Translations under genes and position numbers: made by a program | Source: Pseudomonas maumuensis | GTDB lineage: Bacteria > Pseudomonadota > Gammaproteobacteria > Pseudomonadales > Pseudomonadaceae | Direction: 5' to 3' | Length of the DNA stretch: 64,000 nucleotides | Assembly (NCBI RefSeq): GCF_019139675.1 | Contig: NZ_CP077077.1 | Coordinates: 1,364,001 to 1,428,000, forward strand | Notes under the pieces: model-generated | Seen by the model: only the letters and a program-made list of their open reading frames with translations | What the model was told of the DNA's origin: nothing | Database searches by the model: none | Shown: positions 2,411 to 7,839 of the stretch, one piece after another | How positions within the stretch are numbered: the stretch's first letter is position 1 | How the letters are laid out: every line of letters starts with the position of its first letter

Positions 2411-4594
2411 TCAGTAGTCCACGCGCCCGGTATGGCTGTTCAGCGAAATCACCCGGGTCTTGCCAATGCGGTGGCGGAAGATCTCGCGTAGGTACTTCAC
2501 CGCCTTCTTCACGCACTCGCGCGACAGGCGGATGTCGTTGATCGAGACGAAGCGGCTCTTGTCGTTGATCAGCTCGCGGTACTTCTTCTCGTACATCGGC
2601 TTGATCGCGTACCAGTTGGTGTCGAGGATCTTCGCCGGGTTCTCGAACTCGTTGAGCAGGTCGTCGATGCTGTCTTCATCGAAGTGCTCGCTGGTGATGA
2701 ACTCGAGGATCGCATTGTCCATGGTGTCGTCGAAGCGGTACGGGTTGCGCGCGAAGCAACGCTTGATGAACGCCACGATCAGCGTGAGGAAATCGTCCGA
2801 CAGGCATGGGCTCTTGGCGATCAGGGTGGTCAGCGACAGGTTGGCCGAGGCGCCGATCACCAGCGCATATCGCTTGAGCGTGGTGTTGGGGAACAGGCTG
2901 TTGAGGTGGGTCTTGAGCCGGTTCAGGTCCATGTACGACAGCTTGTAGTCCTTGGGCAGGGAGACGATCGACACCACCGACGAACAGTTCTTGAAGAAGT
3001 GCAGGTCGTGCAGCGCCGCGGCGTCGTAGCCCGAGGCCTGGTACTGCTCCAACGCGGCGCGGTAGCGGCGCGACTCGATCGGCAGCAGGCTGATGCCTTC
3101 GATGGCCTGGGTCTGCTTGTTGAAGTGCGGCAGGTCGATGGAGCGGAAGAACAGGTCGTCGATGTCCAGGCGCGGCTGCTCACGCTCGAACACCTTGAAC
3201 TTGTCCGAGCCTGCCGGCGGCACTTCCGGCACCACCGACTCGGCATAGGCGATGGCCACGGGGCCGGCCAGGCTCATGAACAGGTCGTTGGCGTCCAGGC
3301 GGATGGTCTCGCCGATGTCGATGCCGGCGCGGCGGAAGTAGTTCTGGTCGTAGTCGGTGGTCACCGCCTGGGCGGTGAGGATGTTGAAGATCTGCTGGGA
3401 GATGTACTGGTTGGCGTGCTTCTCCATGGCGTTGACGTCGATGTTCTGAATCGTGCCGTCGTCGCTCTCCTCGGCGTAGCGCATGATGTCGTTGGAGATC
3501 AGCATCATTGCGTTCCACGGGCGGATGCGGCCCATGACGCTGGCTTCGCTGCTGTCTTCATTGTCGAAGTTGTACGAGAAGTCCCATTCCTCCGACAGGT
3601 ATTTGCACAGCAGTCGCCCGGCGTTGATGTGCAGCGCCTCGGACATTTCGCTGCGGTGGTCGGACGCATTGGGCAGCACGCAGATGCCGCTGGTGAAGAT
3701 CGGCTCGAACACGAACGAATGCCCGCTCTTGCCGTCGTTCTCGTCGGCCGGCTTGGTATCGAAGGTCTTGTTCATGTACGAGTACTGCTGGGCCAGGCCG
3801 AATTCCGAGGCCATGCCCGAGCCGGTGCCGCCACCGGCGCTGAAGATGTAGAAGTACAGGCGCGACTGGTTGGCCTTGATGCCGCAGGAGTCGATCAGGT
3901 ACGAGTGGATCAGCTTCCAGTCGGCGCTGGAGAAGCGCTGGGTGTCCTTGTTGAGGATGATCTTGGCCAGGTACTGGCCGAGGATCGGCGCGTTGCCGGC
4001 GCCACCGGCATGCACCTCGGACAGGTCCATGATCTTCATCTTGCTGTAGTCGCGCAGGAAGCCGCCGCGCTCGCCCTTGCGCGAGAAGCGGATGCGCCCG
4101 GCGATGTCCTTGTCCAGGTCGCCCAGCATCACCAGCGGCTCGACCAGGAACACCGGCTTGGACGCCTTGTTCTGTACCAGGCGCAGGTTCTGGCGGATCC
4201 AGCGTGCCGGGCTGTAGCCTGCCTCGCCCTTGAAGCGGTCCTCGTTGTTGTACTCGTTGAGGAAGAAGGTGCGGGCGTTGTATACAAGCTCCGCCACGTC
4301 CAGGGCGATGTTCGAACCGCAACGACCCAGGCCGATCAGGCACACCGACGGGAACTGCTGCTCCAGGCGTAGTTGGTCTTCGTCTTCGACATGCAGGTTG
4401 GGCGGGAACACCAGGTCGCGCAGGCCGTCGAGGTTGTCGAGGATGCGCTGGATGTCCTGCTCGGTGAAGTACAGGTACTGTTGCGCCGGCATGCTGCGGG
4501 CCGCAGGGAGGTCTCGAGCACTGCTGGCGGTCAGCGAGGTGAGGCTGAGGGACGGCTCGGAGGCCGCATTGGCAGGAGTGTTCGTAGAGGTCAT
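2411..4594 (-). CDS. Tubulin/FtsZ-superfamily GTPase-like protein (Tubulin_2-like)
   Basis: The protein has about 727 residues, counted from the ATG at 4594; an in-frame ATG at 4642 would add 16 residues and neither has a strong ribosome site. Residues about 85-97 hold a glycine-rich loop, LIGLGRCGSN, placed like the FtsZ T1 loop. Residues 253-264 hold AGGGTGSGMASE, a match to the tubulin/FtsZ signature GGGTG(S/T)G. Further on come an EMSEALHINAGRLL helix, LISND near 365-369 (compare the FtsZ guanine-binding Asn region) and RLDAND at 432-437, where both acidic residues of the FtsZ NxDxxD catalytic T7 loop are kept but the Asn is Arg. The C-terminal 290 residues match nothing I know. It has no signal peptide. 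I infer that it binds GTP and may polymerise. It is not the cell-division FtsZ: the length, neighbours and linkers all differ. It stands alone between unrelated genes. Confidence 0.75.
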   Translation of the reverse strand: MTSTNTPANAASEPSLSLTSLTASSARDLPAARSMPAQQYLYFTEQDIQRILDNLDGLRDLVFPPNLHVEDEDQLRLEQQFPSVCLIGLGRCGSNIALDVAELVYNARTFFLNEYNNEDRFKGEAGYSPARWIRQNLRLVQNKASKPVFLVEPLVMLGDLDKDIAGRIRFSRKGERGGFLRDYSKMKIMDLSEVHAGGAGNAPILGQYLAKIILNKDTQRFSSADWKLIHSYLIDSCGIKANQSRLYFYIFSAGGGTGSGMASEFGLAQQYSYMNKTFDTKPADENDGKSGHSFVFEPIFTSGICVLPNASDHRSEMSEALHINAGRLLCKYLSEEWDFSYNFDNEDSSEASVMGRIRPWNAMMLISNDIMRYAEESDDGTIQNIDVNAMEKHANQYISQQIFNILTAQAVTTDYDQNYFRRAGIDIGETIRLDANDLFMSLAGPVAIAYAESVVPEVPPAGSDKFKVFEREQPRLDIDDLFFRSIDLPHFNKQTQAIEGISLLPIESRRYRAALEQYQASGYDAAALHDLHFFKNCSSVVSIVSLPKDYKLSYMDLNRLKTHLNSLFPNTTLKRYALVIGASANLSLTTLIAKSPCLSDDFLTLIVAFIKRCFARNPYRFDDTMDNAILEFITSEHFDEDSIDDLLNEFENPAKILDTNWYAIKPMYEKKYRELINDKSRFVSINDIRLSRECVKKAVKYLREIFRHRIGKTRVISLNSHTGRVDY

Positions 4595-4787
4595 AGTGCG
4601 CCATTTGCCTGGTGTGGTTGGCTTCCCGGTGATGAATATCATCTCGCCATCACGGAGAAATTTCGCGACTTTATCAGTGCGTCTTTTTCTAATGCGATAG
4701 GGGTTTTCCCTAGTTCCATTAAGGTTTTTCCCCTCGTACCTTCATTGCATCGTCCGTTTGTCACGCTTCTTTAATCTGGAGTCGTTC

Positions 4788-5675
4788 ATGAGTGCTTCAT
4801 TGCCTTCGTTGGGGTTTGCCGGAATCGGCCTGATGGGCCTGCCGATGTGCCGTCGGCTGCTGGCTGCGGGGTATCCATTGACCGTGTGGAACCGCAGCCC
4901 GGAAAAGTGTGCCGAGCTGGTCGCCGCTGGTGCGCGCCTGGCCGCGAGCCCCGCCGAACTGTGCCAGGCAACTGACATGGTGCTGCTGTGCCTGGCCGAC
5001 ACGGCGGTGGTACGCGAGGTGGTATTCGGCGAGCAGGGCATCGCCCAGGGCGGGCGCAGCGGTCAACTGCTGGTGGACTTCTCCAGCCTCGAACCGACCG
5101 CTACCCGGGAGATGGCCGCCGAGTTGGCCGCCGTGTGCGGCATGGCCTGGCTCGACGCCCCGGTGTCCGGCGGCACGCCTGGGGCCGAGGCCGGTACCTT
5201 GGCGATCATGGTCGGTGGCGAGGCCAGCGACCTGGCGCGCGCGCGGTCGGTGCTGCTGACCCTTGGGCAGCGGGTGACGCATATGGGCGCGTTGGGTGCC
5301 GGCCAGGTGACCAAGGCGTGCAACCAGATGATCGTGGCCTGCAATGCGTTGGTGATCGCCGAGGTGGTGGCGCTGGCCGAGCAGTCAGGGGTCGATGCGC
5401 AGCTGATCGCCGAGGCGCTGGCCGGCGGGTTTGCCGACTCGAAACCCTTGCAGATCCTTGCCCCGCAAATGGCCGAAAGCCGCTTCGAGCCGGTCAAGTG
5501 GCATGTGCGCACCTTGCTCAAGGACCTCGACACCGCGGTGAAATTCTCCCGCGAGCAGGGTTCGGCGACGCCGCTCAGTGGCCTCGCCGCGCAGCTGATG
5601 CGCCTGCACGGTAGCCAGGGCTATCTGGAAAAAGATCCGGCGACCCTGGTAGCGCTGTATCGCAGCAAGGACTGA
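4788..5675 (+). CDS. Beta-hydroxyacid dehydrogenase (3-hydroxyisobutyrate dehydrogenase family)
   Basis: This 295-residue NAD(P)-dependent oxidoreductase has an N-terminal Rossmann motif GFAGIGLMGLPM (residues 9-20), the substrate-binding motif DAPVSGGTPGAE (123-134) and the catalytic lysine in GQVTKACNQ (K176). The all-alpha C-terminal domain follows. The substrate (3-hydroxyisobutyrate, tartronate semialdehyde or another small hydroxyacid or semialdehyde) cannot be fixed from sequence. The ATG at 4788 follows TGGAGT by 5 bases and begins just before the Rossmann strand; an upstream start at 4758 is less likely. Its last 101 bases overlap the convergent c-di-GMP gene. Confidence 0.88.
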   Translation: MSASLPSLGFAGIGLMGLPMCRRLLAAGYPLTVWNRSPEKCAELVAAGARLAASPAELCQATDMVLLCLADTAVVREVVFGEQGIAQGGRSGQLLVDFSSLEPTATREMAAELAAVCGMAWLDAPVSGGTPGAEAGTLAIMVGGEASDLARARSVLLTLGQRVTHMGALGAGQVTKACNQMIVACNALVIAEVVALAEQSGVDAQLIAEALAGGFADSKPLQILAPQMAESRFEPVKWHVRTLLKDLDTAVKFSREQGSATPLSGLAAQLMRLHGSQGYLEKDPATLVALYRSKD

Positions 5676-7839
5676 GCTCGCCCGGCTGGCGGTCGAGCCG
5701 TTCGAGGATCGGCCGCAGCTCGGCCAGCGGCACCGGCCGGCTGAGCAGGTAGCCCTGAAGATAGTCGCAGCCGTGACTGGCGAGGAACTCGTGCTGCTCG
5801 ACCGTCTCGACGCCTTCGGTGACCACTTTCAGGTGCAGGGTATGGGCCATGATGATGATTGCCTGGACGATCTCGCGGTCTTTCTGGCTGCCCGGCACGT
5901 CCTGGATGAACGAGCGGTCGATCTTCAGCACGTCCAGCGGCAGGCGCTTGAGGTAGGCCAGCGATGAATAGCCGGTGCCGAAATCATCGATCGACAGCGC
6001 TACGCCCTGGGCACGGATGCGCTTGAGCAGGCTGATGGTGTGGTGGATGTCGCCCATCAGGGCGTTCTCGGTGACCTCCAGTTCCAGCTGACGTGGTGCC
6101 AGGCCGGCCTGGAACAGCGCCATCTCCACCTCGGTGGCCAGCTCTTCGCGGCCAAGGGTGAGCGCCGAGCAGTTCACCGTGACCTTGAGATCGCCATAGC
6201 CATGGCGGTTGAGTTGGGCCAGATCCTCGCAGGCGCGGCGCAGTACCCACAGGTCCAATTCGGCGATCAAGCCGTTGGCTTCGGCAATACAGATGAAACG
6301 GTCGGGACTGAGCAGGCCATGCTGTGGATGTTGCCAGCGTACCAGGGCTTCGAGTTTGGCCACCTGGCCGCTGCGCAGGTCGAAGATCGGCTGGTAATGC
6401 ACGCACAGGCCGCGCTCCTCGAACAGTGCCACGCGCAGTTCCTCCTCGAGCTGCAGCTCGAGGGTGGCCCGGGTCTTCAGGCCGTTGTTGAAGAAGTTCA
6501 GGCTGTTGCGCCCGCACCCCTTGGATTGGTAGAGCGCCAGGTCGGCGTTCTTCAGCAGTTCCTCGGTGCTTTGCCCGTCGTCGGGGAAGATGCTGATGCC
6601 GATGCTGGTGGTCATCACCATGCGCCGGCCCGCCAGGTCGATCGGCTCCTTCATGCGCTGCATGATGCGCTGGGCCAGATGGCGCGCCTCGTCGCGGCTG
6701 TTGAGGCTGGTGACGATGCAGAACTCGTCGCCACCGAAGCGGGCCACCAGGTCATGGCCACGGGTGGCGGCCTTGATGTGGTCGGCGATCACCTTGAGCA
6801 GTTCGTCGCCGGCGGCATGCCCGAGGCTGTCGTTGATCCGCTTGAAGTGGTCGATGTCGAGGAACATCACCGCCAGCATGCCGTCATGGGCGGCCTGCTC
6901 GGCCAGGCGCTCGGCGAAGACCTGGTTGAAGCCGCGGCGGTTGACCAGGTTGGTCAGGGCGTCGTAGTGGGCGGCTTGCTGCAGCGAGGCGCGGGCCTGG
7001 TCGAGCTGGCTGAGCAGTACGTTGACCCGGCGCAGGTCGTGCTCCTTGCTCTGCAGCTTCTTGTCGGCCAGCGCCGCGCTGATGCTGCCAGCGCTGATCA
7101 GCAGGGTGATGACGGCAATGGTCAGCGCCAGTTGCAGGCTATTGTCGGCCGAGGGCAGGCGCAGCGCGGTCTCGCTGGGGATCACCAGGGTCATGGCGGC
7201 CATGCCGGTGAAATGGGTCAGGACGATACCTGCGGCCATCAGCAGGCTGGCGCCGTACTTGAGCAGCAAGTGCAAGGTGCCGCTGCCCTTGTTGAAATAG
7301 CGCGCCATCAGCAGCGCCACCAGGCTGGTGAGCACGGCGATGCCGACAGAGGCGAGCAGCAGGCCGGTCTGGTAGTACTGCAGGGCGCTGGTCTGCATGG
7401 CGGCCATGCCTGTGTAATGCATGACACTGATGCCCAGGCCGATGAACAGCGCGGTCTGCAGGTAGTGGCGCAGGCGCATTACGCTGCGGTTGAGACTGTT
7501 CATCGCCAGCCAGGCGGCAAGCAGGGCGACCAGCAGCGACAGGCCGGTGAGCGGGGCGTCGAAGTGGATTTCCAGGGGGGCCTGGAAGGCCAGCATGCTG
7601 ATGAAGTGCATGGCCCAGATGCCCCCAGCGAGGCAGCAGGCACCGAGCACACGCCATTGACGGCGGGCGAAGCGGTCTTCGCATTGGCTCTGGCGTTCGC
7701 TCATGTCCAGGGTGGCGAAACAGGCGGCGCTGGCCACGATGAACGCGAGCAGCACCAGGAAGGGGTTGTGTCGGCAGTCGAGGATGATCTGTCCGGTCGC
7801 CGGCAGCTCGGCGAACAATTGCAGTCCCAGCCACTCCAT
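5575..7839 (-). CDS. MHYT-GGDEF-EAL cyclic-di-GMP signalling protein
   Basis: This 754-residue inner-membrane protein probably makes and/or degrades c-di-GMP. The N-terminal seven-helix MHYT sensor carries its three motifs (MHFISM, MHYTGM, THFTGM), proposed in the family to bind a metal or a gas. A GGDEF domain follows with intact GGDEF and an RxxD inhibitory site (RGHD) five residues before it, then an EAL domain with EALVRW, DDFGTGYSSL, KIDRSF and EGVET. Both active sites look intact. The ATG at 7839 is preceded by AAGAGG; an upstream TTG at 7875 is in frame but has no clear ribosome site. The gene end overlaps the convergent dehydrogenase gene by 101 bp. Confidence 0.93.
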   Translation of the reverse strand: MEWLGLQLFAELPATGQIILDCRHNPFLVLLAFIVASAACFATLDMSERQSQCEDRFARRQWRVLGACCLAGGIWAMHFISMLAFQAPLEIHFDAPLTGLSLLVALLAAWLAMNSLNRSVMRLRHYLQTALFIGLGISVMHYTGMAAMQTSALQYYQTGLLLASVGIAVLTSLVALLMARYFNKGSGTLHLLLKYGASLLMAAGIVLTHFTGMAAMTLVIPSETALRLPSADNSLQLALTIAVITLLISAGSISAALADKKLQSKEHDLRRVNVLLSQLDQARASLQQAAHYDALTNLVNRRGFNQVFAERLAEQAAHDGMLAVMFLDIDHFKRINDSLGHAAGDELLKVIADHIKAATRGHDLVARFGGDEFCIVTSLNSRDEARHLAQRIMQRMKEPIDLAGRRMVMTTSIGISIFPDDGQSTEELLKNADLALYQSKGCGRNSLNFFNNGLKTRATLELQLEEELRVALFEERGLCVHYQPIFDLRSGQVAKLEALVRWQHPQHGLLSPDRFICIAEANGLIAELDLWVLRRACEDLAQLNRHGYGDLKVTVNCSALTLGREELATEVEMALFQAGLAPRQLELEVTENALMGDIHHTISLLKRIRAQGVALSIDDFGTGYSSLAYLKRLPLDVLKIDRSFIQDVPGSQKDREIVQAIIIMAHTLHLKVVTEGVETVEQHEFLASHGCDYLQGYLLSRPVPLAELRPILERLDRQPGELSPCCDTALPGSPDLFPDSPGYRAGASAARRGH

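Follow-up and report, generated by a model that had tools for sequence, protein, structure and literature searches.

An accessory FtsZl2-family gene with tubulin/FtsZ-superfamily motifs in Pseudomonas maumuensis

The DNA analyzed here (the window) is a stretch of 64,000 nucleotides from Pseudomonas maumuensis (contig NZ_CP077077.1, positions 1,364,001 to 1,428,000), and at 2411..4594 on its minus strand lies an open frame of 727 codons plus a stop, whose predicted product carries the motifs of the tubulin/FtsZ superfamily and is assigned below to the FtsZl2 family. The longest frame for this gene starts 16 codons further upstream, at 4642; the ATG at 4594 was preferred because it is the start common to most aligned Pseudomonas proteins. 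An earlier note on this DNA, made from the sequence alone, had described a lone protein of about 727 residues, nearly twice the length of FtsZ, with ordered tubulin/FtsZ landmarks, an unassigned C-terminal half and no known role or partner, and had taken it for undescribed biology in a core region of Pseudomonas. The observation is real and its interpretation is partly supported: the length, the motifs and, as judged from them, the superfamily membership were all borne out.

The window protein was aligned with 16 chosen relatives that are 58-87% identical to it. Residues 1-40 (4475..4594, minus strand, as for all features of the gene) form a variable N-terminal tail without any invariant column. 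They are followed by a T1-like loop GLGRCGSN (residues 88-95, 4310..4333), invariant in 17/17 sequences except at L89 and aligned to T1 of FtsZ, and by a T3-like loop GGAGNAP (residues 197-203, 3986..4006), which hhalign and both MAFFT modes align to GAGANP, the T3 loop of FtsZ. The T4 signature GGGTGSG (residues 254-260, 3815..3835), a T6-like LISND (residues 365-369, 3488..3502) and a T7-like RLDAND (residues 432-437, 3284..3301) complete the series, and all four motifs from T3 to T7 are invariant in the 17 sequences. The four landmarks listed in the earlier note thus lie where it placed them; the T3-like loop had been overlooked. T1, T3 and T4 align to FtsZ in order, and T6 and T7 were assigned by motif and order, the MAFFT placement against FtsZ being unstable there. 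Compared with the published T7 consensus NxDxx[D/E] (PMC12583498), RLDAND retains both acids, as had been claimed, and has Arg for Asn in all 17 sequences, with no variation at R432, D434 or D437; to judge from this alignment, the invariant Arg is a family-specific change.

The superfamily signature GGGTG[ST]G was found in 0/200,000 shuffles of the protein and, among the open frames of at least 150 residues in the window, in a single one. Over 236 sequences, most of which were chosen for carrying FtsZl2 or FtsZ, the signature is present in 203/4,786 frames of at least 150 residues and the ordered T1-T4-T7 pattern in 200, frames being counted by pattern alone. The profile search that had been proposed as a check gave matches to Tubulin_2 (PF13809; E 0.0016, residues 197-370, ending close to the T6-like motif) and Tubulin (PF00091; E 0.002), but these are weak and stay under the gathering cut-offs, at 18.2 of 27 bits and 18.9 of 33 bits, respectively. 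At E <= 0.1, Tubulin_2 matches 15/17 aligned members and Tubulin 12/17; a genome-wide PF00091 search up to E 1 returned only ftsZ and not the FtsZl2 gene. Alignments by hhalign against one FtsZ and against 16 FtsZs were weak, and a sequence search of solved structures gave one chance match (E 1.4) with the protein as query and none with the profile. NCBIfam, PADLOC and PHROGs held no match for the protein. Two AlphaFold2 predictions reached a predicted local distance difference test (pLDDT) score of 31.7 and 33.0, too low to use, and fold searches were likewise uninformative; for this reason we infer the fold, GTP binding and filaments from sequence. The sub-threshold Pfam scores and the unusable models leave some room for the view that the motifs match by chance in an unrelated protein. 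With the signature absent from every shuffle, ordered motifs that do not vary, and independent evidence from a published HHpred search that linked the type protein PFL_1302 to PF00091 (E 0.0033; PMC2875224), this view is barely credible, and the ordered motifs are, as sequence features, beyond chance.

The FtsZl2 family was named by Makarova and Koonin in 2010, with PFL_1302 of Pseudomonas fluorescens Pf-5 as the type protein, and was published as having T1, T4, T6 and T7 loops and a C-terminal region, about 300 residues long, that could not be assigned, without associated genes and without a function (PMC2875224). The alignment of that study includes Marinomonas and Chromobacterium (PMC2875224). 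Across residues 1-727, the window protein shares 88% identity with the copy of Pseudomonas protegens FD6 (L054). With the FD6 copy as a stand-in for PFL_1302 (Pf-5 is now called P. protegens), sequence comparison identifies the window protein as an orthologue of PFL_1302. It has the T1, T4, T6 and T7 loops of the family, a similar-sized unassigned C-terminal region, no conserved associated genes and a co-resident FtsZ, and no tested feature separates it from FtsZl2. The claim of undescribed biology therefore falls, a family with a Pseudomonas type protein having been described in 2010 (PMC2875224). No later work on FtsZl2 or its function was found in the open-licence literature, searched in full text for the family name and more broadly by titles and the starts of abstracts: two other papers that contain the name FtsZl2 deal, by title, with FtsZ of other bacteria, three more use FtsZl names a few times, and PFL_1302 occurs in one paper. 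A 2023 paper on evolution left the Tubulin_2 group aside and does not use any FtsZl name in the main text. The gene is an accessory orphan of an already described family, with a function still unreported in the searchable literature, and not a novelty of the core genome. This analysis adds a T3-like loop and broader sampling, along with evidence that the gene is often absent, that some sites are empty and that it may have moved horizontally.

The C-terminal region (residues 456-727, 2411..3229) is without an assigned family and gave no Pfam match above cut-off, in agreement with the earlier note. In its stretch 481-615, 66 of the 135 residues are invariant in all 17 sequences. The whole-gene ratio of non-synonymous to synonymous substitution rates is 0.06-0.20 in six chosen pairs, with both halves constrained, which indicates purifying selection, and on these measures the C-terminal region is under the kind of constraint expected of a functional domain. 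Close to the C-terminus, residues 688-706 (2477..2533) form a basic amphipathic stretch with the highest 18-residue hydrophobic moments of the protein. The highest 19-residue hydropathy mean is 1.4 and there is no clear transmembrane stretch, so that by hydropathy the protein is predicted to be cytoplasmic.

Using the protein as query and counting the source genome, FtsZl2 was identified in 44/95 relatives and in 42/59 genomes of the genus. Because it is missing from 17/59 genomes of the genus, the label of a core region is wrong; the gene is accessory. A marker gene, which we take to be RapA, was located in 15 of the 17 genus genomes without FtsZl2 (G051 and G056 were left out), and the 10-11 kb beside it contained no FtsZl2 match at the threshold used in any of these 15. 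The flanking genes are about 165-325 bases apart in four of them, leaving no room for FtsZl2 (empty sites), and in the rest at least one of the flanking genes is not adjacent. On a quick, single-gene RapA tree of 58 carriers and the 15 non-carriers, 12 changes of the FtsZl2 state were counted, of which starred branches force at least 8, and the clustering of the state barely exceeds that in shuffles (46 and 51 of 500 shuffles were as low). Carrier proportions on this tree are meaningless, since the best-matching loci supplied the carriers. The repeated absence fits a non-essential role for FtsZl2.

The gene is often missing from its one fixed site and yet strongly conserved in the genomes that have it, as would also be expected of a phage-interaction gene, either for defence or as a host factor exploited by phages, that is kept and lost under shifting selection. 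We regard this as very unlikely: no PADLOC model matches the FtsZl2 protein (the view of defence genes among its neighbours is limited to ten scanned proteins), and a neighbouring GGDEF-EAL gene is about as patchy, without a match in 15/59 genomes of the genus, so that patchiness alone is not special to FtsZl2.

Beyond the genus, searches with a 13-row profile, confined to the phylum, detected FtsZl2 in 2/369 genomes of a class sample and 9/398 of a phylum sample (the source genome counted in each), and in 11/12 genomes of a family numbered f233, 1/3 of f72, 29/48 of f26 and 2/6 of f14. One f233 copy is in pieces: in genome G821 (L154:8405-11230) the gene is broken and has within it a 210-residue frame of another kind, presumably an SGNH-type hydrolase. 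The 80 loci kept from at least 339 contig relatives are all from Pseudomonas among the matches listed. As published, the family is limited to Proteobacteria (PMC2875224). In a protein tree with half of its forks open, the f233 protein L155 groups with f26, apart from the other two f233 genera examined (support 88/98, below the starred mark), and it is 80-82% identical to the f26 side and 75-76% to the f233 side; the f72 protein lies closer to Pseudomonas than f26 does. Both placements suggest horizontal transfer between families.

TubZ and PhuZ are filament-forming members of the tubulin superfamily encoded by plasmids and phages, and the patchy distribution and apparent transfer across distant families would be compatible with a segregation tubulin of either type stranded in the chromosome. 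Such an origin is already disfavoured and appears extremely unlikely. Unlike these plasmid and phage genes, FtsZl2 had no match in 72,556 plasmid records, in 50,697 phage records or, by pattern scan, in viral contigs, nor among the PHROGs, and a DUF2288 gene adjoins it in 82/88 Pseudomonas loci, which argues for one chromosomal site.

We favour, with a probability of roughly 0.55, the reading that FtsZl2 is a dispensable, stand-alone, self-assembling cytoplasmic GTPase of the tubulin/FtsZ superfamily, separate from the division FtsZ. In FtsZ, the T7 loop inserts into the next subunit and bears catalytic residues (PMC12583498). By analogy, residues 81-455 of FtsZl2 would bind GTP, and each subunit would contribute its D434 and D437 to the GTPase site of its neighbour in a head-to-tail stack, thereby completing that site. 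GTP-dependent head-to-tail assembly is the most economical reading because both T7 acids and the pocket motifs are retained. The C-terminal region 456-727 would take the place of the C-terminal domain and tail of FtsZ, providing lateral contacts or binding to membrane or a client, and the basic amphipathic stretch at 688-706 might be the part that binds. Such a protein would require no dedicated operon partner and would serve a conditional, dispensable task other than division; a self-assembling scaffold or a filament for positioning is the likeliest form.

FtsZl2 resembles FtsZ in the order of the T1, T3 and T4 loops and in the T7 acids, and differs from it in being nearly twice as long, in the inserts between loops, in the Arg at T7, in another C-terminal region and in not being universal. 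The differences within the motif-bearing part could mean that the protein is a GTP-binding switch or a degenerate tubulin-fold GTPase that forms no filament, the Arg of T7 having exchanged catalysis for a regulatory contact. The presence of this Arg in all 17 aligned sequences and the long inserts between T1, T4 and T7 relative to FtsZ would suit such a protein; the invariance of both T7 acids would be unexpected if stacking had been lost, and we consider this alternative unlikely.

The division ftsZ is another gene, the sole PF00091 match above cut-off, located elsewhere in the same genome beside a frame that we read as ftsA, and FtsZl2 is present there in a single copy. The co-residence with ftsZ and the superfamily that FtsZl2 shares with FtsZ by motifs would allow an accessory division part that co-assembles with FtsZ or modulates it. 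A division role is nevertheless quite unlikely, because ftsZ lies elsewhere and FtsZl2 is dispensable by distribution: its absence from 17/59 genus genomes and its changes of state on many branches speak against such a role, as does the lack of any recognized division gene beside it in the loci examined.

The main interest of FtsZl2 is that the function of this tubulin-superfamily branch, although named in 2010, is still unreported in the searchable literature. As a single-copy, operon-free gene in tractable laboratory species of Pseudomonas, FtsZl2 is amenable to showing whether bacteria have another stand-alone tubulin-like filament, and closely related genomes that differ in carrying it can be compared directly.

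The genes around FtsZl2 bear out the claim of a lone position. On one side lies a convergent gene for a DUF2288 protein (Pfam PF10052; 1945..2250, plus strand), within 1.5 kb of FtsZl2 in the 82/88 Pseudomonas loci mentioned above, among which a few genomes occur twice. On the other side is a divergent gene (4788..5675, plus strand) that we take to be hydroxyisobutyrate-dehydrogenase-like, and behind it, on the same strand as FtsZl2, a gene for an MHYT-GGDEF-EAL protein (Pfam; 5575..7839, minus strand). In other lineages, FtsZl2 lies near a Ppx/GppA gene (one f26 locus) or a phosphofructokinase gene (one f233 locus), both by Pfam. The neighbour survey that had been suggested found no fixed partner across lineages: no gene cluster besides FtsZl2 spans more than three of five lineages, with the gene located in 37/40 loci (L057, L024 and L025 were missed though they carry FtsZl2, and the broken G821 copy is included) and with f14 and f72 contigs of only 9-11 kb limiting the comparison. 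None of the neighbours identified is cytoskeletal, and none is common to all lineages examined. FtsZl1, the Tubulin_2 group, which FtsZl2 resembles by its weak profile match across residues 197-370, contains a coiled coil and is encoded in operons with vWA, kinase and OmpA-like partners (PMC2875224); no partner of these kinds was recognized among the FtsZl2 neighbours examined.

A GGDEF-EAL gene lies within 1.5 kb of FtsZl2 in 77/88 Pseudomonas loci, and a same-strand GGDEF-EAL gene is found in Pseudomonas, in 6/11 f26 loci and in the sole f72 locus (one protein per lineage was checked by Pfam), within about 5 kb and with different sensor parts, namely MHYT in Pseudomonas, ammonium transporter/PAS in f26 and PAS/GAF in f72. 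Within the genus, the GGDEF-EAL neighbour has a match in 34/42 FtsZl2 carriers vs 10/17 non-carriers (Fisher p 0.10), only 18 candidates per genome having been scored and some best matches lying away from the FtsZl2 site. By chance, at least three of five lineages would have a GGDEF gene within 5 kb with a probability of about 0.013, a figure uncorrected for the many other gene classes that might have been noticed and estimated from the density of one genome per lineage (three f233 genomes vary from 18 to 56 matches). With that p value, an unconvincing chance estimate and a neighbour that is not obligate, GGDEF-EAL was rejected as an established partner of FtsZl2; the reading that these gene positions suggest, a stand-alone tubulin-like filament with its assembly or use tied to cyclic-di-GMP signalling, is highly improbable.

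Two of these loci contain further frames. At L162:10913-14023 (f26), adjoining FtsZl2 on the same strand, one protein combines a whole ammonium transporter with PAS, GGDEF and EAL (Pfam). At L152:5004-6923 (f72), a frame of 640 residues lies between FtsZl2 and the PAS/GAF-GGDEF-EAL gene, all on one strand; it had no Pfam match at E <= 0.0001, and its N-terminal stretch looks by eye like a membrane anchor.

Upstream of FtsZl2, an alignment of 19 Pseudomonas loci showed no nameable promoter or operator. The conserved block AGGCAAATGGCGCAC (window 4595-4610, minus strand) contains another ATG, in the +1 frame and 10 bases ahead of the FtsZl2 start codon, which was found upstream of 72/79 named Pseudomonas copies (L106 omitted from the count). 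In 49/72 loci the frame that it opens has only 6-8 codons, and this short frame may be a leader overlapping the FtsZl2 start codon.
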